A stretch of DNA of 64,000 nucleotides from Chthoniobacterales bacterium (GTDB lineage: Bacteria > Verrucomicrobiota > Verrucomicrobiia > Chthoniobacterales > DASVRZ01): positions 82,264-146,263 of the forward strand of contig JBDSQB010000010.1 of the NCBI GenBank assembly GCA_039930045.1, in the 5' to 3' direction. The notes below the pieces were generated by a model. The model was not told the DNA's origin and did no database searches. It worked only from the letters and a program-made list of their open reading frames with translations. Positions 3,565 to 54,717 of the stretch are shown piece by piece; position 1 is the stretch's first letter; each line of letters begins with the position of its first letter. The translations under genes were made by a program, and so were the position numbers.

Positions 3565-5031
3565 ATGACTGTCCTTTCCATCCGCCAGATGATCGAACTT
3601 GAAACGCGGGCCTTTGCCAGCGGAGTGGACGCATGGGAATTGATGCAGGAAGCCGGGCGGCAAATGGCTTGCGCGATTCGTCAGAGATTTCCGCAACCCG
3701 GCTTTTGCCGCGTATTTGCGGGAAAAGGAAACAACGCTGGCGACGCTTGGGTGGTCGCCCGATTGTTAGACGAGGCGGGCTGGAAAGTGGAGGTCGAATG
3801 TCCGTTTCCCATCGGCGAAATGTCCCCGCTGGCTCGCCGCGCGATCGAGGGTTGGACAGGACGAAAATCTTCCGCCGAAACAACACCGCCCAATCGCCGA
3901 CCGCCGTTCATCGTCGTGGATGGATTGCTCGGGATCGGTGCGCAAGGCGAAGTCCGCCCGCCGCTGCGCGAAATGATCCACGAAATCGCACGGCAACGAG
4001 CGCAGGGCGCGGTCGTCTTTTCACTCGATCTGCCCAGCGGACTGGGAACGGAAACGTGCGTCGTTGCGGATCACACACTCACCGTTGGTTTTGCCAAGGA
4101 CGTGCTGCTGGCCGACGCGGCGGCGCACTTCGTCGGACGCATTTCTGTCCTGCCGCTGGAGGAACTTTCCAGTCGAGTTACAGACGAATCTGCGGATGAA
4201 CTCGCGACCGCGGCGACCCTGCGTTCCGTGCTGCCACCGCGCTCGTTCGACATTCACAAAGGCGAATGCGGGCGCGTGATGTTAGTTGCGGGCAGCCTCG
4301 GCACGGCGGGCGCGGCAGTGCTGGCGGCCCATGGCGCGTTGCGGGCCGGAGCCGGATTGGTCTCACTGGTTTGCCCGCCAGAAATTTACCCGACCCTGGC
4401 TCCCATGCTGCCGCCCGAAGTGATGGCGCGTCCGTGGGATCAGATGGGCGAAACGAAGATGGACGTGCTCGCCATTGGACCCGGACTCGACCCCAAGTGG
4501 CGCGACGCCATCTGGCCGCTCATCGAATCCGCCCCCATTGGCCAACCGCTCGTGCTCGATGCTGGTGCGCTTACCATTTTGGCCGAAGACATTTCACGGT
4601 TGGAAAAACTGCCAGGCCCCATTCTCCTCACGCCGCATCCGGGAGAAATGGAACGCCTTTTCCCCCGGCAAAATCGCACCCGCGCTCAGTGGGCGGCGGA
4701 CTGCCTTTCCACTCACGGCAACGTCACGCTCCTGCTGAAAGGCTCCCGCACCCTCGTCGCACAACGCGACTGGCCCGCGAGTTACAATTCCACCGGGCAT
4801 CCAGGCATGGCCACCGGCGGCATGGGCGACACGCTTACCGGAGTTTGCGCCGCCCTGCTCGGGCAAAAACTTTCCACCCGCGATGCCGCGCGCGTGGGTG
4901 CCTGGGTCTGCGGACGCGCTGCCGAAATTGCCGTGGAAGAGAGCGGCCAAAGTCAGGAATCGCTCTTGCCATCCGACTTGCATTCGACTCTCGGACGCGC
5001 CTTTTCCGATCTGCGCGCGGGCGTTTACTAA
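3565..5031 (+). CDS. nnr: Bifunctional NAD(P)H-hydrate epimerase / ADP-dependent NAD(P)H-hydrate dehydratase
   Basis: A 488-residue cytosolic metabolite-repair enzyme. The N-terminal ~210 residues are the YjeF_N epimerase, with a GKGNNAGDAW motif (family form GxGNNGGDG). The C-terminal half is the ribokinase-like dehydratase, with the TPHPGE motif and a G-G-M-G-D-T-L-T-G nucleotide/catalytic loop. Together they convert damaged NADHX/NADPHX back to NAD(P)H. The frame extends upstream into tRNA-Arg; the ATG at 3565, just after the tRNA, is the only sensible start. It is the first protein gene of a same-strand run through tsaB. Confidence 0.93.
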   Translation: MTVLSIRQMIELETRAFASGVDAWELMQEAGRQMACAIRQRFPQPGFCRVFAGKGNNAGDAWVVARLLDEAGWKVEVECPFPIGEMSPLARRAIEGWTGRKSSAETTPPNRRPPFIVVDGLLGIGAQGEVRPPLREMIHEIARQRAQGAVVFSLDLPSGLGTETCVVADHTLTVGFAKDVLLADAAAHFVGRISVLPLEELSSRVTDESADELATAATLRSVLPPRSFDIHKGECGRVMLVAGSLGTAGAAVLAAHGALRAGAGLVSLVCPPEIYPTLAPMLPPEVMARPWDQMGETKMDVLAIGPGLDPKWRDAIWPLIESAPIGQPLVLDAGALTILAEDISRLEKLPGPILLTPHPGEMERLFPRQNRTRAQWAADCLSTHGNVTLLLKGSRTLVAQRDWPASYNSTGHPGMATGGMGDTLTGVCAALLGQKLSTRDAARVGAWVCGRAAEIAVEESGQSQESLLPSDLHSTLGRAFSDLRAGVY

Positions 5032-5094
5032 GGCGAGTTCAGGGAAAATCGCCGCTTGTGAACGACGGCGTACTCCGCCAAGTTGCGCCCACTT

Positions 5095-6120
5095 ATGAGC
5101 GATAAAAAATCGGGGTGTCTCGCGCTGTCATTATTTTTGGCCCTCTGCGTCAGCCTTCTCATCAACGTCGGACTTTTTTCCACCAAAGTCGGCAACTCCA
5201 TCAAGCACTCGGCCATGAAATCGGGTGTCCAGTCCGACCTGCCGAGCTTCGATGAAACCGTCGTGCAAAACGCCACCAGCGGCTCCGGCGACCGTATTGC
5301 TGTCATCGAGATTCGGGGCGTCATCAGCAGCTCGGCGCCTGGTCGCCTCACCGACTCCATGGTCGATGACGCGAAGGTCGCCTTGCGCCAGGCCACCAAT
5401 GACGAAAACGTCCGCGCCATCGTCCTGCACATCGATTCGCCGGGCGGGGAAGTCACCGCCTCCGACGTCATTTACAACGAAGTCCGCGCCGCGCGGCAGA
5501 AGAAAAAAGTCGTCGTTTACATGGGCTCCGTCGCAGCCTCTGGCGGCTACTACATTGCCTGCGGCGGCGACTATCTGATGGCCAACGAAACGACCATCAC
5601 CGGCAGCATCGGCGTCATCATGCACACGCTGAAATACAAGGATCTCTTCGGCAAAATCGGCGTCGAATCCGTTGTCTTCAAGAGCGGCCAATTCAAGGAC
5701 ATCCTCAGTGGCAGCCGCGACATGACCGAGCCCGAACGCGCCTACATTCAGGCGATGGTCATGCAGACCTACGACAAATTTGTCGGCATCGTCGCCAGCG
5801 AACGAAAAATCGACGAGGCCTATCTCCGGACTAACATCGCCGATGGACGCATCATTTCTGGCAAAGACGCCGTGGGTTCCAAGCTGATCAACGCCACCGG
5901 CTACATCGAGGACGCCTACAACAAGGCACGCGAACTCGCCAACTCGCCGAACGCCGCCATCGTGGAATACAAGGCGAAGTTCCGCTTCGGCAATCTGCTG
6001 CGGAGTTTTGGAGCCGAGTCCAAGTCGAATGCCAAGGTCGAAGTCTCGCTCGGCGAGGGAATTCTGCCGCATCTCGAGTCGGGTCGGCTCTATCTGCTGC
6101 CGTCGTTCTACGCGGAATAA
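5095..6120 (+). CDS. sppA: Signal peptide peptidase SppA, S49 family
   Basis: A 341-residue serine protease of the short (Bacillus-type) SppA form, anchored by one N-terminal transmembrane helix (about residues 9-30). It degrades cleaved signal peptides in the membrane. The Ser-Lys dyad can be assigned: Ser149 in the S-V-A-A-S-G-G-Y-Y motif and Lys201 in K-S-G-Q-F-K-D, with the ~52-residue spacing seen in the Bacillus enzyme. An in-frame TTG lies at 5083, but the ATG at 5095 gives a clean signal anchor. A CPBP protease gene follows 3 bases later. Confidence 0.92.
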   Translation: MSDKKSGCLALSLFLALCVSLLINVGLFSTKVGNSIKHSAMKSGVQSDLPSFDETVVQNATSGSGDRIAVIEIRGVISSSAPGRLTDSMVDDAKVALRQATNDENVRAIVLHIDSPGGEVTASDVIYNEVRAARQKKKVVVYMGSVAASGGYYIACGGDYLMANETTITGSIGVIMHTLKYKDLFGKIGVESVVFKSGQFKDILSGSRDMTEPERAYIQAMVMQTYDKFVGIVASERKIDEAYLRTNIADGRIISGKDAVGSKLINATGYIEDAYNKARELANSPNAAIVEYKAKFRFGNLLRSFGAESKSNAKVEVSLGEGILPHLESGRLYLLPSFYAE

Positions 6121-7775: not shown

Positions 7776-8194
7776 AAACCACCGTCCATTCCTTGGCCGA
7801 GCTGGGCGCGCTCGCGGAAAAAATTGCAGTCGAGTTAGAGCCGAATGCGATCATCCGACTCGACGGAACTTTGGGCGCGGGCAAAACCCATTTTGTGAAA
7901 GCGCTCGCCGCGGCGCTGGGTTATCCCGATGAGGTTTCGAGCCCGACTTTTCCTCTCGTTCACGAGTATCGCTGGAACGACCGATTGTTAGTCCACATCG
8001 ACTTCTATCGTCTGGAAACTGAGGACGAAATTTTTGCAGCCGGGTTGCAGGAATATCTGCCCTGCGAAGGCATCACCGTGGTGGAATGGGCGGGCAAGTT
8101 TCCCGAGGTTTTTCCGCAGCAAAGCTGGCAGATTCAGCTCACCATTCTCGATGAAAACAGCAGGGAGGTCGCCGTTGAATCGCCTCGTCATTGA
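7772..8194 (+). CDS. tsaE: tRNA threonylcarbamoyladenosine biosynthesis ATPase TsaE
   Basis: A 140-residue P-loop ATPase. Walker A is G-T-L-G-A-G-K-T, followed by the conserved S-P-T-F-P-L-V-H-E-Y segment. With TsaB and TsaD it makes the t6A37 modification of ANN-decoding tRNAs. The start is TTG overlapping the thiL stop; a GGAGG lies about 12 bases upstream. It overlaps tsaB by 20 bases, so the pair is coupled. Confidence 0.93.
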   Translation: MKTTVHSLAELGALAEKIAVELEPNAIIRLDGTLGAGKTHFVKALAAALGYPDEVSSPTFPLVHEYRWNDRLLVHIDFYRLETEDEIFAAGLQEYLPCEGITVVEWAGKFPEVFPQQSWQIQLTILDENSREVAVESPRH

Positions 8195-8765
8195 ATCCTC
8201 CACCGCGCAGGCCAGCGTCGCGCTTTTCTCCGGGAGCGAATTGTTAGTCGAGGAAGTTTTTCCCAGCGGACGCGGCCCGGTCAGCCAGTTCTTTTCGATC
8301 TTGGAGCGCACGCTGAAGTTAGTCGATCAACTCGACGAGCTAGTCGTCGGCGTTGGCCCTGGCAGTTACTCCGGCATCCGCATCGGAATCTCCGCTGCGA
8401 TAGGACTGCAACTCGCCCGTGAAATTCCAGCGATGGGCATCGTCTCGTTGTTAGGATTCGAGGGCGACAACTATCAAGTCGTGCTCGACGCGCGCGGAAG
8501 CTCGACCTTTGCGAAGGTCGCGAATGGAATGTTAGTCGCCGCTCCCGAGAACTGCACACGCGAGGAGATGTTAGAAAAAATAGATTCGAGTTGGATCACG
8601 TTCAGCCCCGACGAGATCGGTGATCTATCGCTGACGAAATCCTTCCCACTCGCCTCGATGTTAGGAAAACGCGTCCTCGCTGGCGGCGTGATTCCACTTC
8701 CATTGCAACCGCTCTACCTAAAAAAGCCGCACATCACCGCCGCAAAAACGATACCGCTTTTCTAG
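8175..8765 (+). CDS. tsaB: tRNA threonylcarbamoyladenosine biosynthesis protein TsaB
   Basis: A 196-residue actin-fold (ASKHA) protein with the TsaB motif G-V-G-P-G-S-Y-S-G-I-R; it partners TsaD and TsaE in t6A synthesis. The TTG at 8175 is chosen because AGGGAGG sits about 7 bases upstream and it gives the expected N-terminus N-R-L-V-I-E-S-S. The protein is at the short end for the family. The gene is full of the rare Leu codon TTA in a GTTAG context (six GTTAG in under 600 bases). Last gene of the plus-strand run. Confidence 0.92.
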   Translation: MNRLVIESSTAQASVALFSGSELLVEEVFPSGRGPVSQFFSILERTLKLVDQLDELVVGVGPGSYSGIRIGISAAIGLQLAREIPAMGIVSLLGFEGDNYQVVLDARGSSTFAKVANGMLVAAPENCTREEMLEKIDSSWITFSPDEIGDLSLTKSFPLASMLGKRVLAGGVIPLPLQPLYLKKPHITAAKTIPLF

Positions 8766-8778
8766 CTAAACATTCTTC

Positions 8779-8857
8779 GGGAGCGCACGCGTCTCGCGTG
8801 CATCCAGCGGGCGTCCCGCCCGGTGGCGTTTCGAGCTTCTCGGAGACGCGGGCTCCC
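8779..8857. repeat. Imperfect intergenic inverted repeat, likely bidirectional terminator
   Basis: Lies between the convergent ends of tsaB and livF. The arms GGGAGC...GCGTCTCG and CGGAGACGCG...GCTCCC are nearly complementary, and the interior holds smaller palindromes (GCGGGCGTCCCGC). There is no long T-run, so it may end transcription in both directions or be a dispersed repeat element; I cannot separate these from one copy. Confidence 0.5.
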
Positions 8858-8861
8858 AGTG

Positions 8862-9569
8862 CTACCCTCCCAGATACGCCTCGCGGACTTGGGGATTCAC
8901 CCGCAGGGCAGGGGACGCGTCTTCCAAGATGATTCGGCCTGTCTCCAGCACATATCCGTAACTGGAAACTTCCAGAGCCAGATTCGCATTCTGCTCGACC
9001 AGCAAAATCGTGATCCCGAGCGTCTGATTGATCTCGATGATCTTCTCGAAGATCGTCTTCACCAGCAACGGCGCAATGCCCAGCGACGGCTCGTCTAACA
9101 TCAGAAACTTCGGCTTGCTCATCAGCGCGCGACCGATGGCCAGCATCTGCTGCTCTCCTCCAGACAGCGTGCCTGCGGTCTGTTTTTCCCGCTCCTTCAG
9201 CCGAGGGAAAATCGCGAAAATATAATCGAGTTCCTTCGGGAAATTGGCCTTGTCGTTCCGCAGATAAGCGCCCATCCGTAGATTTTCCATCACGGTCAAA
9301 TTGGCAAAAACCATCCGGCCTTCCGGCGACTGAGCCAGCCCGCGTGCGACTAGTTTGTGAGGTGGCAGATTCGTGATGTCCTCCCCGCAGAAAACAATGG
9401 AACCCGACCGCGCGCGGACCAGCCCGGAGATCGTCCGCAGAGTCGTCGTCTTCCCCGCGCCATTCGCCCCGACCAGTGTGACAATGCTGCCAGATTCGAC
9501 TTTCAGCGATATGCCTTGCAGCGCCGAGATTGATCCGTAGCAGACTTCGAGATCTTTGATTTCTAACAT
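8862..9569 (-). CDS. livF: Branched-chain amino acid ABC transporter ATP-binding protein LivF
   Basis: A 235-residue ABC ATPase. Walker A is G-A-N-G-A-G-K-T, the ABC signature is L-S-G-G-E-Q-Q-M and Walker B is K-F-L-M-L-D-E-P. The short length and the E-G-R-M-V-F-A-N-L-T segment are typical of LivF rather than LivG. It powers uptake of Leu/Ile/Val or related amino acids with LivG, M, H and J. Last gene of the minus-strand cluster, 4 bases after livG. Confidence 0.95.
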   Translation of the reverse strand: MLEIKDLEVCYGSISALQGISLKVESGSIVTLVGANGAGKTTTLRTISGLVRARSGSIVFCGEDITNLPPHKLVARGLAQSPEGRMVFANLTVMENLRMGAYLRNDKANFPKELDYIFAIFPRLKEREKQTAGTLSGGEQQMLAIGRALMSKPKFLMLDEPSLGIAPLLVKTIFEKIIEINQTLGITILLVEQNANLALEVSSYGYVLETGRIILEDASPALRVNPQVREAYLGG

Positions 9570-9573
9570 TGGC

Positions 9574-10335
9574 TTAGGTGCCTAGATACGCGGCGATGAC
9601 TGTGGGGTTGCAGCGGATTTCCTCGGGGGTGCCTTCGGCGATTTTTTTGCCGTAGTCGAGGACGGCGATGCGCTGGCAGATGCCCATGACGACTTTCATG
9701 TCGTGCTCGACTAACAAGACGGCGAGTCCAAATTTTTCCTGGGTGAAACGGATGAGTTTCATCAGCTCGGCCTTCTCGGTGGGGTTCATGCCGGCAGCGG
9801 GTTCGTCGAGGAGGAGGAGCTTGGGTTTTGTGGCGAGAGCGCGAACGATTTCGAGGCGGCGCTGGTCGCCGTAGGCCAGGCTGCGGCAGTGGTTGTCGCG
9901 CTCTTTTTCGAGTCCAAAGATTTCAAGCAGCTCCATGACTTGGGCCTCGATGGAAGCTTCCTCATGGGTGAATTTTGGGCCGCGCAGGAGGGCTTGGGAA
10001 ATGCCATGTCGCAGATGCAGGTTGCAGGCGGTGCGCACGTTGTCATAAACCGTGAGCGAGGCGAAGAGGCGGATGTTTTGGAACGTGCGGGCGATGCCAC
10101 GGGCGGTGATGCGGTAGGGCCGCTGACCGCTGACGGGTTTGTCGGCGAAACAAATCGTGCCCGAGGTGGGACGGTAAACGCCGGTGATGAGGTTGAAAAC
10201 GGTGGTCTTGCCCGCGCCGTTGGGGCCAATCAGGCCGACGAGTTCGCCAGGGTGGATTTGGAGGGAAACGTCGGAGACGGCTTTGAGTCCGCCAAACTGG
10301 ACGGTGACTTGGTTGAGATCGAGGAGCGCGCTCAT
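9574..10335 (-). CDS. livG: Branched-chain amino acid ABC transporter ATP-binding protein LivG
   Basis: A 253-residue ABC ATPase. Walker A is G-P-N-G-A-G-K-T, and the R-T-F-Q-N-I-R-L-F segment and D-E-P-A-A-G-M-N-P after Walker B are typical of LivG. The signature region reads L-A-Y-G-D-Q-R-R-L-E, the LivG form of the ABC motif. Overlaps livM by 4 bases, as expected for a coupled operon. Confidence 0.95.
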   Translation of the reverse strand: MSALLDLNQVTVQFGGLKAVSDVSLQIHPGELVGLIGPNGAGKTTVFNLITGVYRPTSGTICFADKPVSGQRPYRITARGIARTFQNIRLFASLTVYDNVRTACNLHLRHGISQALLRGPKFTHEEASIEAQVMELLEIFGLEKERDNHCRSLAYGDQRRLEIVRALATKPKLLLLDEPAAGMNPTEKAELMKLIRFTQEKFGLAVLLVEHDMKVVMGICQRIAVLDYGKKIAEGTPEEIRCNPTVIAAYLGT

Positions 10336-11294
10336 TTTTTCCGGGCCAATCTAACTCCAAACAAGCCTTGCGGCCGCGTGAGCATGAGGATGATGAGGAG
10401 CAGTGAGTAGAGAATCATCCGGTTTTCCGCGACATGCCGGAACCAGTCGGGTAGCCACTCGTAGTGGGAGACCTTGCGGAGGAATTCTGGCAAAATAGTT
10501 AGCAAAACTGCCGCCAGACAGACGCCGACCGTGCTGCCCATGCCGCCAAGAATGACCATGACGACGATGTCCACGGACTTGATGAAGTTGAAGCCCTCGG
10601 GGTGGATGAATTGCTTGAAGTGCGCGTAAAGTCCCCCGGCGATTCCGGCGAAAAAGGCGGCGAGGACGAAGGCGAGGACCTTGTATTTAGTGGTGTTGAT
10701 GCCCATCGCTTCGGCGGCGATTTCGTCATCCTTGACCGCGAGAAAACCGCGTCCGTAGGTGGAATTCACCAGGCTGACAACGACGTAAACCGTGAGTGCG
10801 GCGAAGGCGAAGGTCCAAAAGAAATTCGTGTGCAGCACCATGCCACCGAGTCCGCGTTGTGCGCCGAGAGCCTCGCAATTCTGGATGATGCCCTTGATGA
10901 TTTCATTGAAACCCAGCGTGACGATGGCGAGGTAATCGCCGCGCAGCCGCAGCGAGGGAATGCCGACGATGAGGCCGGCGAGCGCCGCTCCAATACCGCC
11001 AAGCAAGAGGGCAATTACATAGCCAGTTGTGATAGCAATGGAACTCGAACCTAAAATATAGCCGTAGCTGAGGGTGAGCCAGGAGGAGCCATACGCGCCG
11101 ACCGCCATGAAGCCCGCGTGGCCGAGCGAAAACTGGCCGGTGTAGCCGTTTACAAGATTAAGCCCAGTGGCGAGGATGATGTTGATCCCTATGCCGACGA
11201 GGATGTCGTAGTAGTAGGGATTCATCCCGGTGGCGAAGGTCGAAATGACGCCGCACGCGATCAATGTTAGGAGCAGGACAAGCTGGCTGCGCAT
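10332..11294 (-). CDS. livM: Branched-chain amino acid ABC transporter permease LivM
   Basis: A 320-residue inner-membrane permease with about eight to nine hydrophobic segments. It has the LivM hallmarks N-L-V-N-G-Y-T-G-Q-F-S-L-G-H-A-G-F near the N-terminus and G-G-M-G-S-T-V-G in the later part. Its start overlaps the livH stop by one base. Confidence 0.94.
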   Translation of the reverse strand: MRSQLVLLLTLIACGVISTFATGMNPYYYDILVGIGINIILATGLNLVNGYTGQFSLGHAGFMAVGAYGSSWLTLSYGYILGSSSIAITTGYVIALLLGGIGAALAGLIVGIPSLRLRGDYLAIVTLGFNEIIKGIIQNCEALGAQRGLGGMVLHTNFFWTFAFAALTVYVVVSLVNSTYGRGFLAVKDDEIAAEAMGINTTKYKVLAFVLAAFFAGIAGGLYAHFKQFIHPEGFNFIKSVDIVVMVILGGMGSTVGVCLAAVLLTILPEFLRKVSHYEWLPDWFRHVAENRMILYSLLLIILMLTRPQGLFGVRLARKK

Positions 11295-12220
11295 CAGACT
11301 TTTTCCTGTTCGGAGGCTCCGAGGAGTCCGGTGGGTTTGAGCAGCAAAATGAGAATGAGCACGCCGAAGACGATGGCGTCGCGATAGGTAGGACTAATAT
11401 AGCCGACGACCATGGTCTCAATGACGCCGATGAGGATGCCGCCGAGCGCTGCGCCGGGAAGATTGCCGATGCCGCCTAACACTGCGGCGACGAAGGCCTT
11501 GAGCCCAGCGCTGATGCCCATGAGCGGGTCGATGCTGGGCTGCTGGATCGATGTTAGGATGCCCGCCGCGCCGGCCAGAGCGGAACCTAACCCAAATGTA
11601 AACGCAATGACGACGCTGTTGTTAATGCCCATGAGCGAGGCGGCGACGGGGTTGAAGGACAGCGCGCGCATGGCCATGCCCATCTTCGTATGCAGCACGA
11701 TGTGGCGCAGGCCAAAGAGCAAAATGACGGTGACTAACATCGAAATGGCGGCGCTCAGTTGGATACCCAATTCCGAGATTCGTCCCCACGTTTCTGGCAG
11801 GCTGATGTAGCGGTCGGTGAGGATTTCCGGGAACGATTTGGGGTCGGCTCCGAAGAGAAACTGGCCGCCATTTTCCAAGAACAATGAAACTCCGATGGCG
11901 GTGATGAGAACAGTGAGTTTCGGACGATTGCGCAACGGGCGATAGCAAAGCCACTCGATGCCAATGCCGATGAGCGCGCAGAGGATCATGGTGACGAGTA
12001 GCATCGAAATCAGCACGCCATAGCCCGGCTGATCGCCAAAGAGCCGAAGCATTTTTGGCCCGATATAAAATCCGGCAAAAGCTCCTAACATATAGACGTC
12101 GCCGTGGGCGAAATTGATAAACCGCAACACCCCGAAGACCATGGTGTAGCCCAGCGCGATCAGGGCGTAAATGGAGCCTTGGGCCAGTCCGTTGATGAGT
12201 TGTTGGAGAAACTCTAACAT
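11294..12220 (-). CDS. livH: Branched-chain amino acid ABC transporter permease LivH
   Basis: A 308-residue polytopic permease. It starts with the family's L-I-N-G-L-A-Q-G-S-I-Y-A-L-I-A-L-G-Y-T-M-V-F-G pattern and has the G-G-I-G-N-L-P-G-A loop near the C-terminus. Forms the membrane channel with LivM. Contains several GTTAG/CTAAC words on both strands. Confidence 0.94.
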   Translation of the reverse strand: MLEFLQQLINGLAQGSIYALIALGYTMVFGVLRFINFAHGDVYMLGAFAGFYIGPKMLRLFGDQPGYGVLISMLLVTMILCALIGIGIEWLCYRPLRNRPKLTVLITAIGVSLFLENGGQFLFGADPKSFPEILTDRYISLPETWGRISELGIQLSAAISMLVTVILLFGLRHIVLHTKMGMAMRALSFNPVAASLMGINNSVVIAFTFGLGSALAGAAGILTSIQQPSIDPLMGISAGLKAFVAAVLGGIGNLPGAALGGILIGVIETMVVGYISPTYRDAIVFGVLILILLLKPTGLLGASEQEKV

Positions 12221-12273
12221 TTTATAGCCACACTCAGTTCGTCTCCATGCATTCCCTCTGTGGCTAATTTTCC

Positions 12274-44841: not shown

Positions 44842-44860
44842 CCATTCGAGTTCCAATCCA

Positions 44861-45814: not shown

Positions 45815-45835
45815 AAATTTCTTGCAGATAACCCC

Positions 45836-45864
45836 TTGCCAAGGGTGGGGACGCGGCCTATAAC
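45836..45864 (+). promoter_or_regulatory. Sigma70-type promoter for tRNA-Tyr
   Basis: TTGCCA at 45836-45841, 17-base spacer, TATAAC at 45859-45864. The tRNA begins 44 bases on. Confidence 0.7.
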
Positions 45865-45907
45865 AGCACTCCCCGCGCGAGTGGGGACGACGATAATGTC
45901 TAAAAAT

Positions 45908-45992
45908 GGGTAGGTTCCGGAGTGGCCAAACGGGGTGGACTGTAAATCCACTGGCATCGCCTTCACAGGTTCGAATCCTGTCCTGCCCACCA
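45908..45992 (+). tRNA. tRNA-Tyr (anticodon GTA), CCA encoded
   Basis: Acceptor GGGTAGG pairs with CCTGCCC (one T-G pair); anticodon stem TGGA/TCCA around CTGTAAA gives GTA; a long variable arm and T arm CAGG-TTCGAAT-CCTG follow. Discriminator A, then CCA in the DNA, unlike the other two tRNAs here. Confidence 0.95.
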
Positions 45993-46062
45993 TTATCGCG
46001 AAGCGGATGCAGACCAACATTCTGGCGTCCGCGGGTAAATGGAAACACGTTGAAAGGGTGGC

Positions 46063-47031
46063 ATGAGCGAGATCCGCATCGGCATATCGGGGTGGACGTA
46101 TCCGCCATGGAGAGGCGTTTTTTACCCCGAGAAATGGCGGCAAAAAGACGAGCTGGCCTATGCCTCGCGCCAGGTGAGTTCCATTGAAATCAACGGCACC
46201 TTTTACTCGCTGCAACGCCCGGAGAGCTATCGCAAATGGTTCGAGGAAACGCCCGACGACTTCGTCTTTGCCGTGAAGGGCGGACGCTTCATCACGCATA
46301 TCCGGCGGCTCAAGGACATTGAACAGGCGGTAGCCAATTTCCTCGCGTCCGGCCTGCTGCGGCTGGAGAAAAAACTCGGGCCAATCCTCTGGCAGTTGCC
46401 GCCGAGTTTGAAGTTCGATCCGGTGCGACTGGAGACGTTTTTCAAACTCCTGCCGCATACGATGAAGGACGCCGTGGCCGTGGCTAAAACCCACAATGAA
46501 ATCGTCGAGGACCACGACTGGACCGAGCTCGACCCTGAATTGGAGGAGTGCCCGGTGCGTCACGCCCTGGAAGTGCGGCATCCGTCGTTTCAGTGCGAGG
46601 AATTTATCGAACTCCTCCGCCAATATCGCGTCGCGCTGGTCGTCGCCGACACGGCCGGGAAATGGCCTTTCATGGAGGACATCACGAGCGACTTCGTCTA
46701 TGTGCGATTGCACGGCGAGGAAGAGCTTTACGCCAGCGGCTACACCGAGGAATCGCTCGCCAACTGGGCGCACAAAATCGAGTCGTGGTCGAAGGGGAAA
46801 AACCCGGAAGGCGCGAAATTGTTTTCCTCGAAAGCTCCCAAGCAAAAGCAGGGCTGCGACGTTTACGTTTACTTCGACAACGACGTAAAAGTCCGCGCGC
46901 CGCACGATGCCATGTCACTCGCGCACCGTCTCGGCTTGGGCGACGCGCCGACGCCAATGCTCCGCACGGAGCGCATTGAAGAAATGCCACGGCTGCAATG
47001 GAAACAACCCCACCAGTGGGCGCGCACATAG
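46063..47031 (+). CDS. DUF72 (YecE-like) protein, copy 3
   Basis: 322 residues, the longest of three. I-G-I-S-G-W-T-Y-P-P-W-R-G-V-F-Y-P, S-I-E-I-N-G-T-F-Y-S, F-V-F-A-V-K-G-G-R-F-I-T-H, W-Q-L-P-P, A-L-E-V-R-H-P-S-F and Y-V-R-L-H-G are present. It has an insertion around residues 140-165 (D-H-D-W-T-E-L-D-P) and an extra C-terminal ~35 residues. Downstream of tRNA-Tyr; function unknown. Confidence 0.9.
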   Translation: MSEIRIGISGWTYPPWRGVFYPEKWRQKDELAYASRQVSSIEINGTFYSLQRPESYRKWFEETPDDFVFAVKGGRFITHIRRLKDIEQAVANFLASGLLRLEKKLGPILWQLPPSLKFDPVRLETFFKLLPHTMKDAVAVAKTHNEIVEDHDWTELDPELEECPVRHALEVRHPSFQCEEFIELLRQYRVALVVADTAGKWPFMEDITSDFVYVRLHGEEELYASGYTEESLANWAHKIESWSKGKNPEGAKLFSSKAPKQKQGCDVYVYFDNDVKVRAPHDAMSLAHRLGLGDAPTPMLRTERIEEMPRLQWKQPHQWART

Positions 47032-47049
47032 CGATCTAACTCGAAAGCC

Positions 47050-47154
47050 GTGTTTGCCTTTTTCTCCAACAAACTCGGATGCCTCGGCTCCATCGTCGTG
47101 TCCCTCCTCGGCTCGTTGCTCCTCATCTTTCTGATGCGGAGCTGCCATGGCTAG
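47050..47154 (+). CDS. Very small membrane protein (34 residues)
   Basis: GTG start; begins F-A-F-F-S-N-K-L-G-C-L-G-S, then a single hydrophobic helix I-V-V-S-L-L-G-S-L-L-L-I-F-L-M and a short R-S-C-H-G end. The start-S-N-x-L-G-C-x-G-S pattern resembles tiny single-pass proteins I associate with other bacteria. It sits 18 bases after DUF72 copy 3 and overlaps the convergent gene by 4 bases. No strong ribosome site. Confidence 0.55.
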   Translation: MFAFFSNKLGCLGSIVVSLLGSLLLIFLMRSCHG

Positions 47155-47663
47155 GATGCGTCCTGACTCGCCCGTGGCGACGTGTGAAACGCGGCCTCTG
47201 TTTCTCGGCGGTCGTTGAGAAACGTATCGAGCAGCATCGCCAGCAGCCAGCCCCAGACAAGGTGCGCGACAATCATCAAACCGCTACGGCGCACGGGATG
47301 TTTTTCCGCCGGAGAAAGAATTCCCAGAGCGGGCAGGAGGCCGAAATAACTTGTCAGCCAGACCAGCATTCCAAAAATCAGACCGCGCGGAGCCGGTGCA
47401 ATGGGCACTTTTGCATTCGCATAAAGGACGCCCGCAGCGCCGCCGTAGCCGAAGTGCGCCAGCCAGGCCACAGCCGAACGGGTGGGGGGAGTTAGAGGCA
47501 TATCCGTGGTGATTTTCTCCGTGATCTCGCGCGGCGGCAGCGGGTATTTTTCCGACTGCGGCAAGCGCCGGTGCAGCGCGATCATTACTGCGCTCATCGG
47601 CCCGGTCGCACAGACGCCGCAGATCAGGCCGAGGAGCGAAGGGAGGAGTTTGGGTGCTTTCAT
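47151..47663 (-). CDS. Hypothetical inner-membrane protein (YagU/DUF1440-like)
   Basis: 170 residues with about four hydrophobic helices: L-I-C-G-V-C-A-T-G-P-M-S-A-V-M-I-A-L, H-F-G-Y-G-G-A-A-G-V-L-Y, M-L-V-W-L-T-S-Y-F-G-L-L-P-A-L-G-I and H-L-V-W-G-W-L-L-A. The layout resembles DUF1440/YagU proteins. The ATG at 47663 is preferred to a longer frame reaching ruvX. Confidence 0.75.
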   Translation of the reverse strand: MKAPKLLPSLLGLICGVCATGPMSAVMIALHRRLPQSEKYPLPPREITEKITTDMPLTPPTRSAVAWLAHFGYGGAAGVLYANAKVPIAPAPRGLIFGMLVWLTSYFGLLPALGILSPAEKHPVRRSGLMIVAHLVWGWLLAMLLDTFLNDRRETEAAFHTSPRASQDAS

Positions 47664-47734
47664 TTCACGTGATAAACGAAATTGAAATTCGACCCGGCTG
47701 TAAATCGACGCGGACGGTTTCTCCGTCCTTGGCC

Positions 47735-48160
47735 TCACTCCAGCGGCGGAGCCATCGAATCGAGGTAGCTCTGGAGAATGATCACAGCGGCGACTTGGTC
47801 GATGACTTTGCGGCTGTTTTTGACCGTGCGCCCGGCGTCGTGGAGGGAGCGCTGCGCTTGCTGTGTGGTCATGCGTTCGTCCCAGAGAATGATGGGGATT
47901 TTCAGCGCGGGCTTCAATTTGTCGGCGAACTCGCGGATTTTCTCGGCGGCGGGGCCGTAAGTTCCATTCATATTGCGCGGGAGGCCGATGACGACGCGCT
48001 CGATTTTTTTCTCGGCAATGACCTCGCAGATTCGTCTGGAAGTCGCATTGAATTTCTCCCGGCCATTGAGCGTTTCCAGCGGGTGCGCGAGCATGCCGAG
48101 TTCGTCGGAAATGGCGAGTCCGATGCGGGCGTCGCCGTGATCAATGCCGAGGATTCTCAC
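47735..48160 (-). CDS. ruvX: Putative pre-16S rRNA nuclease / Holliday junction resolvase RuvX (YqgF)
   Basis: 141 residues, RNase H-like fold: G-I-D-H-G-D-A-R-I-G (first Asp), V-V-I-G-L-P-R-N-M-N-G-T-Y-G, W-D-E-R-M-T-T and a late D-Q-V-A-A-V-I-I-L-Q. Known roles of YqgF are 5' maturation of 16S rRNA and possible resolvase activity. It overlaps manC by 4 bases. Confidence 0.93.
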   Translation of the reverse strand: MRILGIDHGDARIGLAISDELGMLAHPLETLNGREKFNATSRRICEVIAEKKIERVVIGLPRNMNGTYGPAAEKIREFADKLKPALKIPIILWDERMTTQQAQRSLHDAGRTVKNSRKVIDQVAAVIILQSYLDSMAPPLE

Positions 48161-49218
48161 TGGAGTTCGGGTGGAATCTTTTTGATGAGAGTTTTGATCA
48201 GCTCGGCCTCGTGGCGATTGGCAATGAGGATGGCGTCGGCAGTTTCCACGATGACGAGATTCGACACGCCGAGCAAGGCGATGTGTTTTTTGCCCCGGGA
48301 ATAAACGATGTTGTTCTCGGAATCGGTGACAGTCGTGGGCGTGTTCGTGCGGTTATCGTAGCCGTCCCGAGGCAGGTAATTGGCCGCAGCGAGCCAGCCG
48401 CCGACGTCGTCCCAGTCGAATGACGCCTCGACCACGAGCACGCGGGTGGCCTTTTCGAGGATGGCGTAATCGATGGAAATCTTTGGCAGCGCACTGAAAG
48501 TCGAATCGACAAACGCCGCGAGGTCGCTCGCTGCCATGAGGCCCTCGATGAATGTCGAGAGCTCCGGAGTGTTGCGCTGGAACTCCGCCAGAATCGACGG
48601 AATCGTCCAGATGAACATGCCGGCATTCCACTTGAAGTTCCCTTGTTTGAGGAAGGATTCGGCAAGGTCGGGGGCGGGTTTTTCGCGGAAGCGGACCACT
48701 TCAAAAATCGGGGCGTCGGTGCCCGCCAGATGAGCGCCTTGCTCGATGTAGCCAAAACCGGGGCATGCCCACGTCGGCGGAATCCCGATGGTGACGAGTG
48801 CGCCGGTGGAGCGGGCGGCTTCGGCGGCGGTGGCGAGGTCGTTTTGGAGGGCTTCCTCGTCGCGAATGATGTGGTCCGCCGGGAGCACGACCATGGTGGC
48901 GGCGGGATTGCGTTTGGCGACGAGTCCGACTCCGAGAGCAATGGCGGCGGCGGTGTCGCGTTTGTCGGGTTCGGCAAAGATGTTTTCCGCTGGCAGCGAA
49001 GTGATGATCCGCCGGACGGACTCCTCCTGGTCGCGATTGGTGAGAATGAGAATATTTTCCACCGGCACGAGTCCAGAGAGTCGGGAAATGGTGTCCTCGA
49101 GCAACGTTTGGTCGGAGAAAAGATTGAGCAACTGCTTCGGCGTCGCCTTGCGGCTGAGCGGCCAGAAACGCTCGCCGCTGCCGCCTGCGAGGATGAGGAC
49201 GTAAAGATCAGTTTTCAT
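48157..49218 (-). CDS. manC: Mannose-1-phosphate guanylyltransferase
   Basis: 353 residues. The nucleotidyltransferase signature is L-A-G-G-S-G-E-R-F-W-P-L-S-R-K-A-T-P-K-Q, followed by L-P-A-D-H and F-R-E-K-P. It makes GDP-mannose for polysaccharides or glycans. It lacks the C-terminal isomerase domain of the bifunctional type. The ATG at 49218 starts immediately before the motif region. Divergent from the small gene at 49285. Confidence 0.92.
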   Translation of the reverse strand: MKTDLYVLILAGGSGERFWPLSRKATPKQLLNLFSDQTLLEDTISRLSGLVPVENILILTNRDQEESVRRIITSLPAENIFAEPDKRDTAAAIALGVGLVAKRNPAATMVVLPADHIIRDEEALQNDLATAAEAARSTGALVTIGIPPTWACPGFGYIEQGAHLAGTDAPIFEVVRFREKPAPDLAESFLKQGNFKWNAGMFIWTIPSILAEFQRNTPELSTFIEGLMAASDLAAFVDSTFSALPKISIDYAILEKATRVLVVEASFDWDDVGGWLAAANYLPRDGYDNRTNTPTTVTDSENNIVYSRGKKHIALLGVSNLVIVETADAILIANRHEAELIKTLIKKIPPELQ

Positions 49219-49284
49219 GTAAAGAATCGGAAAGACTAACGGATTGTTTTTTTTCGGTCGCGAGCCTATTCTAACGCTCAAGAC

Positions 49285-49581
49285 ATGTCGAACAATCCTC
49301 CAAACTCTTTCCCCACGTCGGCTCCCATGGCCGGTTTATTCTCACTCGCGCAGACGGCCATCGGCTGCGGCATCGGCCTCTTGATTGCTGACAAACTCCG
49401 CCAGAAAAAACAGACGACGGCGATCACTCTTTTCTCGGTCGCCGTGGCGTCGGTCGTGCCGGTGATTGTGACCTATGTCGTCTCGCGGACGAACGGCCCG
49501 GAGTCGAAGCGCGGAATGCGGAAACGCCTTCGCTCCATTCGCGAGGACAGCGGCTGGAACGAGGAAACGGACATGCACTAA
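49285..49581 (+). CDS. Small hypothetical membrane protein
   Basis: 98 residues with two hydrophobic segments (about 17-35 and 46-65), a charged loop K-L-R-Q-K-K-Q between, and a polar Arg/Glu-rich tail. Not recognised. Its promoter shares a 66-base gap with the manC start. Confidence 0.7.
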   Translation: MSNNPPNSFPTSAPMAGLFSLAQTAIGCGIGLLIADKLRQKKQTTAITLFSVAVASVVPVIVTYVVSRTNGPESKRGMRKRLRSIREDSGWNEETDMH

Positions 49582-49602
49582 GCCCCGCCGGGCTGATCCG
49601 AG

Positions 49603-50661
49603 TTAGATCGGAATGAAACTCTCCAGCGGATTGTCGTTGGGATAGAGTTTGCGGTATTCGATCGCCTGCAAGCCCGCGATGGCGGCGACGCCGACGATTT
49701 CATCCACGGTCGCACCGCGCGAAAGCTCGGCGGCAGGTTTGGAAAGTCCGGTGAGGAGCTGGCCGTAAACCGCCGGTTTGGCGAGATACTGGACGAGTTT
49801 GCTGGCGATGTTGCCGCTGTTCAGGTCGGGGAAAATGAGGACGTTGGCCTTGCCCGCGACCTCGCTGCTGGGGACTTTTTTGGCGGCGAGTGCCGGGAGC
49901 AATGCCGCATCGGCCTGCAACTCGCCATCGATGGCCATGTCGAGAAATTGATCGGCGGCGATTTTACGAGCCAGCGCGGTGGCGGCGGCGATTTTCTCAG
50001 TGAGCGGCATTTTTGCGCTGCCCCGGGTCGAGAACGATAACAATGCGACTCGCGGCCTCGCACCGGTGAGCTGGCGTGAGAGGCGTCCGGTTTCCACGGC
50101 GATGGCGGCGAGCTGCTCGATGTCGGGGTTGGGCACGACGGCGCAATCTCCCATGAAGAGCACGCCGTTGTCGCCCAACTCGTGGTCACTCATCTCCATA
50201 ATGGTGCAACTCGAAATGGTCTTCACGTGCGGCAGCGGTGTGACGATCTGGATGAGCGGTCGTAGCAGGGAACTCGAGAATGCCGACGCGCCGCCGACGA
50301 GGGCATCGGCCTGGCCGTATTGCAGCATCATCGCGCCGAAGAAATTGGCATTCAGCATCAGCTCGCGGCAACTCGTCGGACCCATTTTGCGATAGCGCTC
50401 CAGCTTTTCAAATCGGGACACAAACGTCTCAAAGTCCGACGCCGTTCCGGGGTTGATCACCATGATATGGTCCAGACTCACCCCTTGCGCTTTGGCGGCG
50501 GCCGAGATCGAGTTGCGGTCGCCGAGCAGAATCGGCGTGCCGAGTTTCAGCGAGGCAAATTTCCCCGCTGCCTGCAGCACGCGCGGCTCCGTTCCCTCTG
50601 GAAAGACCACCCGCTTGGGGTGACGCGCCAATTTCTCGAAGACGGTCTGGATAAAGGTCAT
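49603..50661 (-). CDS. pta: Phosphate acetyltransferase
   Basis: 352 residues, the short Pta type: V-V-F-P-E-G-T-E-P-R-V-L near the start, G-G-A near the middle, S-F-S-T-R-G-S-A-K and G-E-L-Q-A-D-A-A-L, then K-A-N-V-L-I-F-P-D-L-N-S-G-N-I. Interconverts acetyl-CoA and acetyl phosphate. No ackA nearby. The ATG at 50661 is used. Confidence 0.94.
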   Translation of the reverse strand: MTFIQTVFEKLARHPKRVVFPEGTEPRVLQAAGKFASLKLGTPILLGDRNSISAAAKAQGVSLDHIMVINPGTASDFETFVSRFEKLERYRKMGPTSCRELMLNANFFGAMMLQYGQADALVGGASAFSSSLLRPLIQIVTPLPHVKTISSCTIMEMSDHELGDNGVLFMGDCAVVPNPDIEQLAAIAVETGRLSRQLTGARPRVALLSFSTRGSAKMPLTEKIAAATALARKIAADQFLDMAIDGELQADAALLPALAAKKVPSSEVAGKANVLIFPDLNSGNIASKLVQYLAKPAVYGQLLTGLSKPAAELSRGATVDEIVGVAAIAGLQAIEYRKLYPNDNPLESFIPI

Positions 50662-50734
50662 ACGCCGGAAGCGTGGAGCGTTTGCCGGGTAGAGACAAGC
50701 GCGATTTGGCAAAATATGCTTGGCCCTGGATTCC

Positions 50735-51538
50735 TTAGACAAACACCGGCGGCGCCTCGACTGTAACCTTCATCGAGAGCAATTGCAGCGGGCCAAACTG
50801 CGTCACCAGCGCCACATCCGCCGCGTCGCGCCCATAGGCGACCGTGATTCGATTGCCACGCGGCTCCTTCTGGGTGCCGTCGAAAACAAACCAGCGTCCG
50901 CCTACCCAAGCCTCGAACCAAGCGTGTAGATCCATCGGCTCCAAGTCCTTCAAATACCCCACGACCATGCGCGCGGGGATGTTGATCGACCGGCAAAGCG
51001 CCATTCCGAGATGCGCGAAATCGCGGCAGACGCCCGACTTGGCATTCCACGTATCCAGCGCGGAGGTGCTGGCATTGCTCGCGCCGTAGCGATACGCGAC
51101 GTTTTTCTCGATCCAGCTCCGAATCGCCTCCACCTGTTGATAACCCGGAGGCAGATTGCCGACAATCGAGAGCGCCTCCTGATGCATCAGATCGCTCTGG
51201 CAGTAGCGGCTCGGCAGCAGGTATTGCAGCACATTATCAGGCAGCTGCTCCGCTGGGACAAACTGCGCGTCGCAATCGACTTCGATCTCATTGGCCACAT
51301 CCGCCGTGCAACTGGAGCGAACGGTAAAATCCCCCGGCTGCGCCACCACGCGCTGGCAGAGATTGCCAAAGCCATCGGTGTATTCCGTCACCGGCGAATG
51401 CGGCATAATGGAATATTCCTCCCGCATGATCCACTGCCGCTTGCCGCTGTGCGGATGAAGCATGAGCACCGCCGGCACCGGCACGTGGGTATGAAAAGTG
51501 AGTTCACAAGTCGCGTTCAAAATCATGAGAAGAGTCAT
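50735..51538 (-). CDS. Transglutaminase-like cysteine protease family protein
   Basis: 267 residues. An N-terminal beta-rich domain (T-C-E-L-T-F-H-T-H-V-P-V-P) is followed by a transglutaminase core with the triad Cys in K-S-G-V-C-R-D-F-A-H-L, His in D-L-H-A-W-F-E-A-W and Asp in F-V-F-D-G-T. No signal peptide. Such proteins are often predicted peptidases; the substrate is unknown. Confidence 0.9.
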   Translation of the reverse strand: MTLLMILNATCELTFHTHVPVPAVLMLHPHSGKRQWIMREEYSIMPHSPVTEYTDGFGNLCQRVVAQPGDFTVRSSCTADVANEIEVDCDAQFVPAEQLPDNVLQYLLPSRYCQSDLMHQEALSIVGNLPPGYQQVEAIRSWIEKNVAYRYGASNASTSALDTWNAKSGVCRDFAHLGMALCRSINIPARMVVGYLKDLEPMDLHAWFEAWVGGRWFVFDGTQKEPRGNRITVAYGRDAADVALVTQFGPLQLLSMKVTVEAPPVFV

Positions 51539-51669
51539 ACTGGAATCCGGTTCATTTTTCCAGCGAACGAGTGACCAGGAGACAAATCACTCAGGCCATA
51601 GCCGGATCGCCCTTGCCACTGGGCAAAAAGCGTTCATACTCGCCAGTGGTTAATTTTCCTCCCGCATTG

Positions 51670-52290
51670 ATGAACCTCCCCAAGATTTCCCCATTTCTTC
51701 TCGGCGTTTTGCTCCTCACGAGCTGCCATGTTTTCCGCTCGTCGGAGTTGCAGGTCGCCGTCTCCCACACCCGCTCAGAAGGTTCCAACAGATTGGAAAA
51801 CGTCCACCGGCTTCTGACGCAACGCGGCATCGAGCACAAGCGGATCCTCTTCCGCTATGAAGTGTCCGAGCGGCCTATCGTTGCTCCGACCAGCACCAGC
51901 ACGTTTGCCCTCGGAGAAACGCCGATGGCTTTTCTCCCAAAACGCTCCGTCACCCGCGAGCGCAGCGGCATCCTTTACCGCGACGACGAGCATCGCGGCT
52001 ATGCCTGGTGGTATGTGGACGGCGAGACCCCTCGCCAAGTCTGGCTGCCCAACGACACCATGGAGCGCCAGATCAGCTTCGCCATGCGCCGCCGGATCGA
52101 ACTGCTCCGCGTGGAGGAGTTTGATCGCGCTGTGGACGGCATGGCCAAGGAAGCCGCCAAAGCTCGACACGTCGCAGCCGCCAATTCCGTGATCGACTGG
52201 AACGCCCGTTTCCGCCGCGCCCACGGCACCGACTTCGATGCCGCAAGCCCCGTCGATCTGGCCAAAATGCGTGCGCTCAAAGGGCTATAG
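51670..52290 (+). CDS. Lipoprotein, unknown function
   Basis: 206 residues with lipobox L-T-S-C (Cys18). The mature region has Y-R-D-D-E-H-R-G-Y-A-W-W-Y-V-D-G and a helical C-terminal half rich in Arg and Ala. No family recognised. The ATG at 51670 follows a run of spurious in-frame sequence. Confidence 0.75.
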   Translation: MNLPKISPFLLGVLLLTSCHVFRSSELQVAVSHTRSEGSNRLENVHRLLTQRGIEHKRILFRYEVSERPIVAPTSTSTFALGETPMAFLPKRSVTRERSGILYRDDEHRGYAWWYVDGETPRQVWLPNDTMERQISFAMRRRIELLRVEEFDRAVDGMAKEAAKARHVAAANSVIDWNARFRRAHGTDFDAASPVDLAKMRALKGL

Positions 52291-52378
52291 GCGAAAACTT
52301 TAGACGGGACTTGGATTCCAATCTCAGTGCGCTGATTTCCCTCCACACGAAATAGGCAGCGGGCTAGAGTGCGCTCAA

Positions 52379-53221
52379 ATGGCCTCCATCGGACAAAGAA
52401 ACGCCCTGCAAATCCGTCGCGAAGCCACGCCCGGCTTCTATCTCGATGGGGAAAACCTCGGCGAAATCCTCCTCCCGCGCCGCTACATTCCCGAAGGCAC
52501 CGGCCCCGGCGATTACGTGCTCGTCTTCATCCACCGCGACTCCGAGGACCGGCTCGTGGCCACCACCGAAATCCCCAGCGCACGGGTGGGGGAATTTGCC
52601 AGTCTGCGCGTGATCAGCGTGAATCCACAGCTCGGCGCGTTTCTCGACTGGGGTCTGACGAAGGATTTGCTGCTGCCCATCCGCGAGCAAACGAAGCGGG
52701 TGAGCGTCGGCGAAACGGTCGTCGTTTATGTCCTGCTCGACGGTCAGAGCGACCGCATTATTGCCACCACGAGGCTCGACTCCCATTTGGATCGCACTCC
52801 GCCCGCTTATGAGGAAGGGCAAAAAGTGAGTCTACTCGTCGCGGGCGAGACGCCTCTCGGCTACAAGGCCATCGTCGAAAACGCCCACTGGGGCCTGCTC
52901 TTCAAATCCGACCTCGGCACCGCTCTCAGCATCGGCCAGACGCTTGACGGCTATGTGAAAACCGTGCGGCCCGATGGAAAAATCGACCTCAGCCTCACCC
53001 AGGCCGGCTACGGCCGCGTGCGTTCGCTGACCGAGGAAATCCTCGACGCGCTTCAGAAAAACAACGGACGCCTCGCCGTGAGCGACGGCAGTTCGCCCGA
53101 GGAAATCCGCGAGCAGTTTGCCACCAGCAAAAAAGCTTTCAAGCAGGCTCTCGGTTCGCTCTACCGCAAACGCCTCATCCGCCTCACCGACAGCGGCATA
53201 GAGGTCGTGGAGCCCAGTTAG
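52379..53221 (+). CDS. CvfB-like S1-domain RNA-binding protein
   Basis: 280 residues: two or three S1-type beta-barrels (L-G-A-F-L-D-W-G-L-T-K-D-L-L-L-P and W-G-L-L-F-K-S-D) followed by a winged-helix end (A-F-K-Q-A-L-G-S-L-Y-R-K-R-L-I). This is the YitL/CvfB layout, known in Gram-positives to affect virulence and RNA metabolism. It overlaps the stop of the convergent glycosyltransferase by 4 bases. Confidence 0.88.
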   Translation: MASIGQRNALQIRREATPGFYLDGENLGEILLPRRYIPEGTGPGDYVLVFIHRDSEDRLVATTEIPSARVGEFASLRVISVNPQLGAFLDWGLTKDLLLPIREQTKRVSVGETVVVYVLLDGQSDRIIATTRLDSHLDRTPPAYEEGQKVSLLVAGETPLGYKAIVENAHWGLLFKSDLGTALSIGQTLDGYVKTVRPDGKIDLSLTQAGYGRVRSLTEEILDALQKNNGRLAVSDGSSPEEIREQFATSKKAFKQALGSLYRKRLIRLTDSGIEVVEPS

Positions 53222-54717
53222 GGCAACTCGTAAAGCCGGATTTCCGGATTGAGATGCGACACGCCGGAGCCGCCGGTTTTCTTGAGCAGATGCGCCTTTG
53301 AAAACAGCTCCTGATAAAACGTGCTCCGCCGCTGATGCTGGCCTTCCTGCGTCTTCGAGGCCTTGCGTTTCTCCGACAGATAACCGCCATAGCTAGTACG
53401 AATCACCGCCACATAGCGAGTTCCATTCGACTGAAGTTTTTCAAAGGAACCAAAGTCCGGTGCAAAAATTTTCTCGGAGATCTGCAAGTCGGGCCGCGCC
53501 TGGGTGTGGACCCAGATCGGCGGCTTGGTGAGACAGAGCCGGTTTTCCGCGAGGATGGCACTGTTAGGAGGCAGGTTTTGGGAAATCCACACGGCCATTT
53601 CCATCCGGGAGTCGGAGCGGAAGCTGCGGATGTTAGGAAATGTTAGAACGCACTGCTGCCAGAGGGCAAGTCCTGCGATGGTTAGGAGAGCCAACTGTCC
53701 CGCGAGCCGTTGTTTGCCAGAAAGAAATTGCCCAAGCCAGGCAAGGCCGACGCTGCCGCACAAAATCAGCAACGGCGAGACCGCTAGAAAGTAGCGATTG
53801 GCGGTCTTCGGTGAAAACGAGAGAAGCAAAGTATAGCCGAGCGGAAGGAGCAGGCAGACGAGATCGCTGGCGCGGCGCTCCTTTTTTCGCAGGAACCAGC
53901 CCGCGATGAAACAGACGAGTCCCAGCCAAAGCGGCCAGCCTAGATTATCGACGAAGACGCCGAGATATTTGGCATGGGGCACGTTGCGGGTGAGGCCTTT
54001 TGCGCCGCCGACTTGGGCTGCATTCAATTCATAGCCAAACGCGCCGAAAAGCGCCTGGAGATTGAGTAGAAACGGGAAATTAATTAGCGCGACGGTGGCG
54101 ATTAACCCGGCGAAGAAGAGCCCAATGCAAGTCCCGCGTTTACCGGTTTCTTTGCCTTTCCAGATGATCCACGGGAGGGCGACTAACAACATCACAATGC
54201 CGAGATATTTTCCAGAAATGGCCACGCCGACAGCGGCTCCTAACATCGCGGCGCGCCAGAGCGTCGGCTTGGTGGCAAAGACGTCGAGTGCGAGCAAAGT
54301 TAGGCTGATTCCTAGCAGCAGTGCGGGGTCTTCCTTGCAGTAGTGCGCCAATTCGTAAAGGAGCGGATGCAGCCCGATCAGCACGGCGGCGAGAACGGCT
54401 CCCAGCCACCCGGCGCGGCGGCCAGCTAGTACGCTGAGGGCGACGAGCGAGAGTGCCGTGAAAATGGCCGAGGCCCAGCGTCCGCAGACGACGGCGTTCT
54501 CAGTCGTTCTCGGTAAACCGCTGGCACGCAAGAGGAGTCCGCCGGTGTCGAGGAGGAGCAGGGGATGATGCGCATTAAACTGGCCGGTGACGATTTGCAC
54601 GCCCTTCTGTTCCTCGTCTGGATGATAGAAAATAGGGAAATCGTTGTGCCGCGAGTAGAAAAGCAGGGCTCCGATGAAGAGCGCGACGGAAAGGACAATG
54701 GCGGGCCAGCGGGACAT
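53218..54717 (-). CDS. GT39/ArnT-like membrane glycosyltransferase, copy A
   Basis: 499 residues with about ten to eleven transmembrane helices. The first loop has the acidic pair of this fold (F-Y-H-P-D-E) and A-H-Y-C-K-E-D-P, seen in GT39/PMT-like enzymes using polyprenyl-phosphate sugars. It is a relative of the next gene (same H-N-D-F-P-x-F-Y-H and Y-x-K-E-D-P segments). The gene is rich in GTTAG/CTAAC words. Sugar and acceptor unknown. Confidence 0.85.
   Translation of the reverse strand: MSRWPAIVLSVALFIGALLFYSRHNDFPIFYHPDEEQKGVQIVTGQFNAHHPLLLLDTGGLLLRASGLPRTTENAVVCGRWASAIFTALSLVALSVLAGRRAGWLGAVLAAVLIGLHPLLYELAHYCKEDPALLLGISLTLLALDVFATKPTLWRAAMLGAAVGVAISGKYLGIVMLLVALPWIIWKGKETGKRGTCIGLFFAGLIATVALINFPFLLNLQALFGAFGYELNAAQVGGAKGLTRNVPHAKYLGVFVDNLGWPLWLGLVCFIAGWFLRKKERRASDLVCLLLPLGYTLLLSFSPKTANRYFLAVSPLLILCGSVGLAWLGQFLSGKQRLAGQLALLTIAGLALWQQCVLTFPNIRSFRSDSRMEMAVWISQNLPPNSAILAENRLCLTKPPIWVHTQARPDLQISEKIFAPDFGSFEKLQSNGTRYVAVIRTSYGGYLSEKRKASKTQEGQHQRRSTFYQELFSKAHLLKKTGGSGVSHLNPEIRLYELP

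Follow-up and report, generated by a model that had tools for sequence, protein, structure and literature searches.

The word and its tracts in the window

The window analysed here is a stretch of 64,000 nucleotides from a Chthoniobacterales bacterium (assembly GCA_039930045.1, a genome of 3.52 Mb in 23 contigs; positions 82264-146263 of contig C10, JBDSQB010000010.1), and the element in question is a short DNA word, GATGTTAG, whose core is TGTTAG and whose best form is [G]ATGTTAG. Its protein hits assign the genome to Verrucomicrobiota, close to Spartobacteria/Chthoniobacterales. The window holds 18 exact copies of the full word, nine on each strand, against 0.55 +/- 0.70 in 100 dinucleotide shuffles (never more than 3 in a single shuffle). 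An earlier note on this DNA had listed 17 of them, all exact, missing only the minus-strand copy at 5831; the word-free gaps that it saw at 16-38 kb and 55-64 kb are real.

The copies are gathered in tracts, hereafter also called islands, which are described by the fraction of synonymous chances to spell the word that is realised. A weak tract at 3565..5838, comprising an nnr/YjeF gene and a gene for an S49 peptidase, carries copies at 4278(+) and 5831(-) and realises 3 of 15 chances. It is followed by a tract at 7798..12220, where 19 of 40 chances are realised (the average island rate predicts 14.6) and the word stands at 8567, 8657 and 11550 on the plus strand and at 9095 and 11734 on the minus strand; it includes a gene that partly matches the TsaD family (8175-8765) and, at 8862-12220, a branched-chain amino-acid ABC transporter. 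The tract at 38837..40303, with copies at 38953(-), 39184(-), 39200(+), 39484(-), 40011(+) and 40137(+) and 10 of 15 chances realised, covers two genes, one for a methyltransferase (38873-39649) and one of the laccase-like Cu-oxidase_4 type (39639-40298), and that at 53217..55765 has copies at 53629(+) and 54240(-) together with TGTTAG/GTTAG variants (14 of 29 chances) in a PMT-like gene (53218-54717) and its neighbour (54722-56251), both on the minus strand. Between and beyond these tracts the word is nearly missing: 2 of 131 chances are realised at 12230..38800, which includes genes for a LigD-type ligase, UvrB, PBP2 and a serine hydroxymethyltransferase (SHMT) fusion, 2 of 70 at 40304..53216 and none of 30 at 56260..64000, where the island rate would give 53.9, 26.2 and 12.2, respectively.

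The first of these word-poor stretches encloses a small cluster at 14695..15418, upstream of and within a DUF72 gene (14806-15429), with copies at 14695(+), 14709(-) and 15411(+). The first two form an inverted pair, GATGTTAG-AAACGG-CTAACATC, at 14695-14716, upstream of the DUF72 gene, an arrangement that recalls the paired uptake sequences used as hairpins.

A pressure on the spelling of DNA

The whole genome contains 186 + 170 = 356 copies of the word on its two strands, and only 36 + 31 = 67 of the reversed word used as control. The earlier note had made its proposal depend on codon-shuffled genes, and the excess stands against them: in a sample of 464 kb (400 kb of contig C2 plus the window, with genes called for this analysis by a codon model) 58 copies of GATGTTAG are observed versus 6.2 after shuffling (z 22.7), and 208 of TGTTAG versus 44.9 (z 27.7). 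Islands recur genome-wide and do not stem from a few TTA-rich genes, the alternative considered in that note. In the same sample TGTTAG is the most over-represented 6-mer (256 versus 45 expected), ATGTTAG the first 7-mer and GATGTTAG the first 8-mer by excess over expectation, and they are accompanied by the weaker variants TTGTTAG, TGGTTAG and AGGTTAG and by some CTAG words; the 8-mer originally singled out does rank first, but the real unit is the shorter core plus its variants. The flanks are near-uninformative (C is favoured before the word and G disfavoured two bases after it), and a single longer repeat or a mobile element as the unit was rejected on these flanks and on alignments of the division and cell wall (dcw) genes, which show substitutions and not insertions. 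In fact, alignment gaps amount to 3.6% at word codons and 3.4% elsewhere (identity 0.43 versus 0.49), so that the words have arisen by substitution at homologous positions rather than by insertion.

That a selected DNA word is involved, and neither a peptide nor a uniform codon bias, as first proposed from reading the window, is supported on several sides. In coding DNA the word occurs on both strands and in every reading phase free of stop, four in number, and it is as dense between genes as within them (4.2 versus 4.4 per kb). Synonymous spelling is altered only where it makes the word: codons of the form NCx end in T before AAC-A in 82 of 100 cases in island genes and in 5 of 158 elsewhere, and within the same island genes they do so in only 2 of 38 cases before AAC-G and 3 of 155 before AAG. 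Likewise, xTG-Leu-G uses TTA in 39% of cases in islands and 1.5% elsewhere, compared with 0.6% in both for the control xCG-Leu-G, while Leu-Thr uses CTA in 45% versus 0.6%, with ACA, ACC or ACT and hardly ever with ACG. The sorting of genes in these comparisons used the variants and not ATGTTAG itself, and some variants overlap the contexts being compared; when genes are sorted independently, by words other than ATGTTAG, ATGTTAG itself occurs at 1.16 per kb versus 0.046 per kb. Independent sorting and the synonymous contexts replace an estimate that 52% of the protein-permitted GATGTTAG sites are filled, which was abandoned as inflated because the words create their own peptides. We have high confidence in the pattern, a strand-symmetric and phase-independent excess at the level of DNA, which approaches saturation at synonymous sites within tracts.

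Two explanations that act without recognition of the word can be weighed on the same data. In the first, a translational bias would favour certain codons or peptides (rare TTA/CTA, Met-Leu, Asn-Ile); TTA and CTA are indeed three-fold up in island genes, and [SPTA]NI, LTS and ML[AVGDE] are enriched 2.8-, 2.7- and 1.6-fold in island proteins, which means that the word pressure reaches the encoded proteins. However, the effect needs the exact DNA context, is present on both strands and between genes and disappears in the control contexts; we regard this bias as refuted by the intergenic density and the synonymous-context controls, and practically no credence is left to it. In the second, a mutational process, either cytosine methylation followed by deamination or a CC-preferring deaminase, would turn CCAAC into CTAAC in tracts, and the near loss from islands of the one-step neighbour ATGTTGG (1 versus 28.9 expected) speaks for it. 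Nevertheless, C-versions such as TCCCAAC are about as frequent as expected (12 versus 12.4), two-step and transversion changes are required, and the third base of NCx before AAC-A falls from elsewhere to islands for C (0.42 to 0.09), G (0.44 to 0.06) and A (0.11 to 0.03) alike. Since all three are replaced, no single mutation type explains the words; deamination as the sole cause is refuted by this similar replacement of all three, and a mutational origin appears very improbable.

Two states within one genome

The islands were studied in 864 kb, about a quarter of the genome, and their sorting relies on the words themselves except in the independently sorted figures given above. Of 450 TGTTAG sites, 371 sit in 38 clusters spanning 121 kb, word tracts accounting for roughly one sixth of what was sampled, and the variance-to-mean ratio of TGTTAG in 5-kb bins is 5.35. 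When codons are resampled from non-island usage, island genes contain 256 TGTTAG versus 11.7 expected (22-fold), whereas outside the islands the count is that expected from codons (42 versus 52.2); GGTTAG, AGTTAG and, to a lesser extent, CTAG words are enriched in the same islands. A two-component mixture fit assigns 50% of ATGTTAG chances realised to about 27% of genes and about none to the remainder, and a hidden Markov model on synonymous chances gives tracts of about 2.5 kb and gaps of about 5 kb, 269 log units above a model without clustering, with the longest inferred tracts exceeding 15 kb. Saturation is alike from island to island (chi2 50 on 32 degrees of freedom), as expected of one word-rich state. 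Many island edges fall mid-gene (for example C2:283050-284957, 400942-402840, uvrA and ileS), and a model with a gene-blind prior switches state about as often inside genes as at their boundaries (0.23, 0.22 and 0.18 per kb).

Such sharp states with mid-gene edges, together with the existence of word-rich genomes (see below), could be read as foreign or mis-assembled DNA, whether acquired from a word-rich genome, introduced by contamination or produced by a strain-chimeric assembly. The islands, however, resemble the rest of the genome in masked 4-mers, codon usage and the density of a second motif described below, share its palindrome avoidance (r 0.91) and have the same nearest relative, G031, for the island protein IleS as for the non-island protein UvrB; furthermore, they are found in housekeeping genes and in the interior of contigs as long as 644 kb. 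Given the agreement in codon usage, palindrome avoidance and closest relatives, foreign genes offer no explanation, and any donor must have been very close, at which point this account merges with the recombination that we favour below; as a separate cause, a possible strain-chimeric assembly included, we hold it to be unlikely.

The main rival is a DNA-binding protein, be it nucleoid-associated, silencing or a regulator of a gene class, whose binding sites would coat operons, with the number of sites per operon under selection. Whole operons are in fact covered by the word (the complete dcw cluster at C2:48593-67013, the rhamnose genes and the comEC neighbourhood), neighbouring genes share their word state more when co-directional (0.57) than when opposite (0.24), and operon-like boundaries are mildly enriched for edges (19 of 66 versus 10.8 +/- 3.1 expected); strand symmetry and equal intergenic density would also fit. 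On the other hand, word spacing is near exponential, with neither helical phasing nor orientation preference nor bias to gene starts, the mid-gene edges are many, and functions are mixed both in islands (IleS, UvrA, RecQ, XerD, HemW, RhaD, AroB, LpxK, ComEC) and outside them (ClpB, UvrB, SHMT, PBP2), the identification of uvrA, dcw and comEC resting in part on recognisable motifs. We consider such a protein possible, though doubtful.

The word could also be the target of a putative orphan or restriction-associated methyltransferase, either like HIP1, the highly iterated palindrome of cyanobacteria, or a self mark of the type III or bacteriophage exclusion (BREX) kind. An asymmetric word of 6-7 letters ending in A-G resembles such sites, and HIP1 is an example of a methyltransferase-linked word that is strongly over-represented (PMC4390886). 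A self mark, however, would not account for tracts between which the frequency is at chance level, and the BREX protein PglZ (PF08665) had no match in the genome, which counts against a BREX-like mark. We find this explanation decidedly unlikely. PADLOC, applied to eight proteins of the window, returned nothing relevant.

A separate observation concerns palindromes in the same 864 kb. Outside the islands GTAC (0.13 of expectation), GTCGAC (0.05), CAGCTG (0.16) and GGATCC (0.25) are strongly avoided, which suggests restriction pressure, and inside the islands the avoidance of AGTACT is lifted.

Likeness to uptake sequences and a second motif

The reading that we tentatively prefer, a plausible one that falls short of probable, is that the word behaves like a DNA uptake sequence (DUS) or uptake signal sequence (USS) and that word-rich and word-free tracts have been mixed by homologous recombination. 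In this putative scheme GATGTTAG, through its core TGTTAG, would be a double-strand DNA recognition word, and what brought it near saturation in one part of the genome would be either selection or a bias in DNA uptake and gene conversion. The lineage itself, or a closely related sister population, would use the word as its DUS/USS, and the genome would be a mosaic that arose when very similar populations exchanged DNA by homologous recombination, possibly by way of natural transformation. If the partner was a sister population rich in the word, the observed tracts would follow. Our confidence in how the word has spread is low. The genome encodes genes of the competence type (comEC, dprA, an HHH_3 protein of the ComEA kind and ATPases of the type IV pilus/type II secretion system type, T2SSE).

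The likeness to DUS/USS is considerable: GATGTTAG is short and asymmetric, stands on either strand both within and between genes, exceeds shuffled expectation, was made by substitution, alters peptides and occasionally forms close inverted pairs. Chi-type words are likewise short, asymmetric and enriched in native genes, but they are not known to be limited to tracts, and GATGTTAG lacks a strand preference (9/9 in the window, 186/170 in the genome). Neisserial DUS arise largely via recombination, their density is tied to the length of conversion tracts, and their mean spacing is about 1.1-1.5 kb (PMC2397512). HIP1 (GCGATCGC) shares with our word high iteration throughout coding DNA, but it is palindromic, genome-wide and linked to methyltransferases (PMC4390886), whereas GATGTTAG is asymmetric and patchy.

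Several points weigh against the uptake reading. DUS and USS are genome-wide, while this word exists in two sharp states, with codon-level frequency between the tracts, and is denser, with one GTTAG per about 230 bp (about 4-5 per kb in tracts); it also differs from them in its letters and nearly saturates synonymous sites. Competence and pilus genes are too common to be specific evidence, the mild edge excess at operon-like boundaries suits gene-wise selection better, among the genomes searched none carries the GATGTTAG word throughout, and the sister population is hypothetical. The distribution being uneven, the word is not filed here as a DUS, although it may work like one. The "uptake or recognition sequence" of the earlier note can only be suggested as a possible function; the word is confined to tracts, unlike the known uptake sequences.

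A further point of this kind comes from a degenerate motif of about 20 bp around SANNSGASTTNSATTSNAATS (SANNSGA[GC]TTN[CG]ATTSNAAT[CG]), which by its distribution is a better candidate for a classic uptake sequence. It has 957 sites in coding sequences versus 80-100 after codon shuffling, is present on both strands, 11-fold above codon shuffles, and is fairly even along the genome, with core words about equally frequent inside and outside the islands; the exact form GASTTNSATTNNAATS has 127 copies versus 0 when reversed and 0-4 in relatives. In the window it has 115 position weight matrix sites, for example at 4175, 8407, 11039, 25014, 32735, 42847, 43158 and 52308. If this motif were the uptake sequence, the GATGTTAG word would need another role.

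Comparison with related genomes, also suggested at the outset, revealed no excess of GATGTTAG in the approximately 147 genomes of the same order that were searched. Among 388 genomes of the phylum a single other one has a comparable count (420 versus 115 for the control): G533, of the same class and with 48% GC (loci L171-L210), is rich throughout in GCTAGA, GATAGA, GTTAGC and CAGCTGG and uses CTA in 54% of T-Leu-GC contexts, so that the lineage of the window is not alone in having strong word pressure. AGGTAG as a dialect in another relative (L065/G161) was lost under codon control. Our literature search found, in the library covered, nothing on this word and no uptake sequence described for this phylum, "uptake sequence" and "Verrucomicrobia" co-occurring solely in a review of the detection of horizontal gene transfer.

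A bolder version, which we think possible but somewhat speculative, is that of a two-state genome, in which a word-biased and drive-like recombination imposes the word, nearly to saturation, on discrete, gene-independent tracts that are otherwise indistinguishable from the rest, and G533 may represent a completed conversion with other words. Most known cases of coding DNA reshaped by a word are uptake sequences of two proteobacterial families; if the proposal were true, converted and unconverted DNA side by side in one genome would show the spread of such a word. This bears on whether uptake sequences spread via molecular drive or selection, and the word would mark recombination tracts without population data.

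Some minor observations complete the picture of the window. The GAGTTAGA variant of the second motif overlaps or adjoins the stop codon where genes end (GATC-TAA-CTCG), in the window at 16380, 32780 and 47035 and likewise at gene ends elsewhere, and 20 of its 42 copies in the 464 kb sample are outside called genes. The SHMT fusion is one open reading frame at 32905-35082, which joins low-molecular-weight phosphatase, RpiB/LacAB isomerase and serine hydroxymethyltransferase domains. Finally, positions 1-3349 are the 3' part of a 13.2-kb open frame (C10 about 72389-85612) with repeats that bear GGCGGCGGCGG (repeat family D1).

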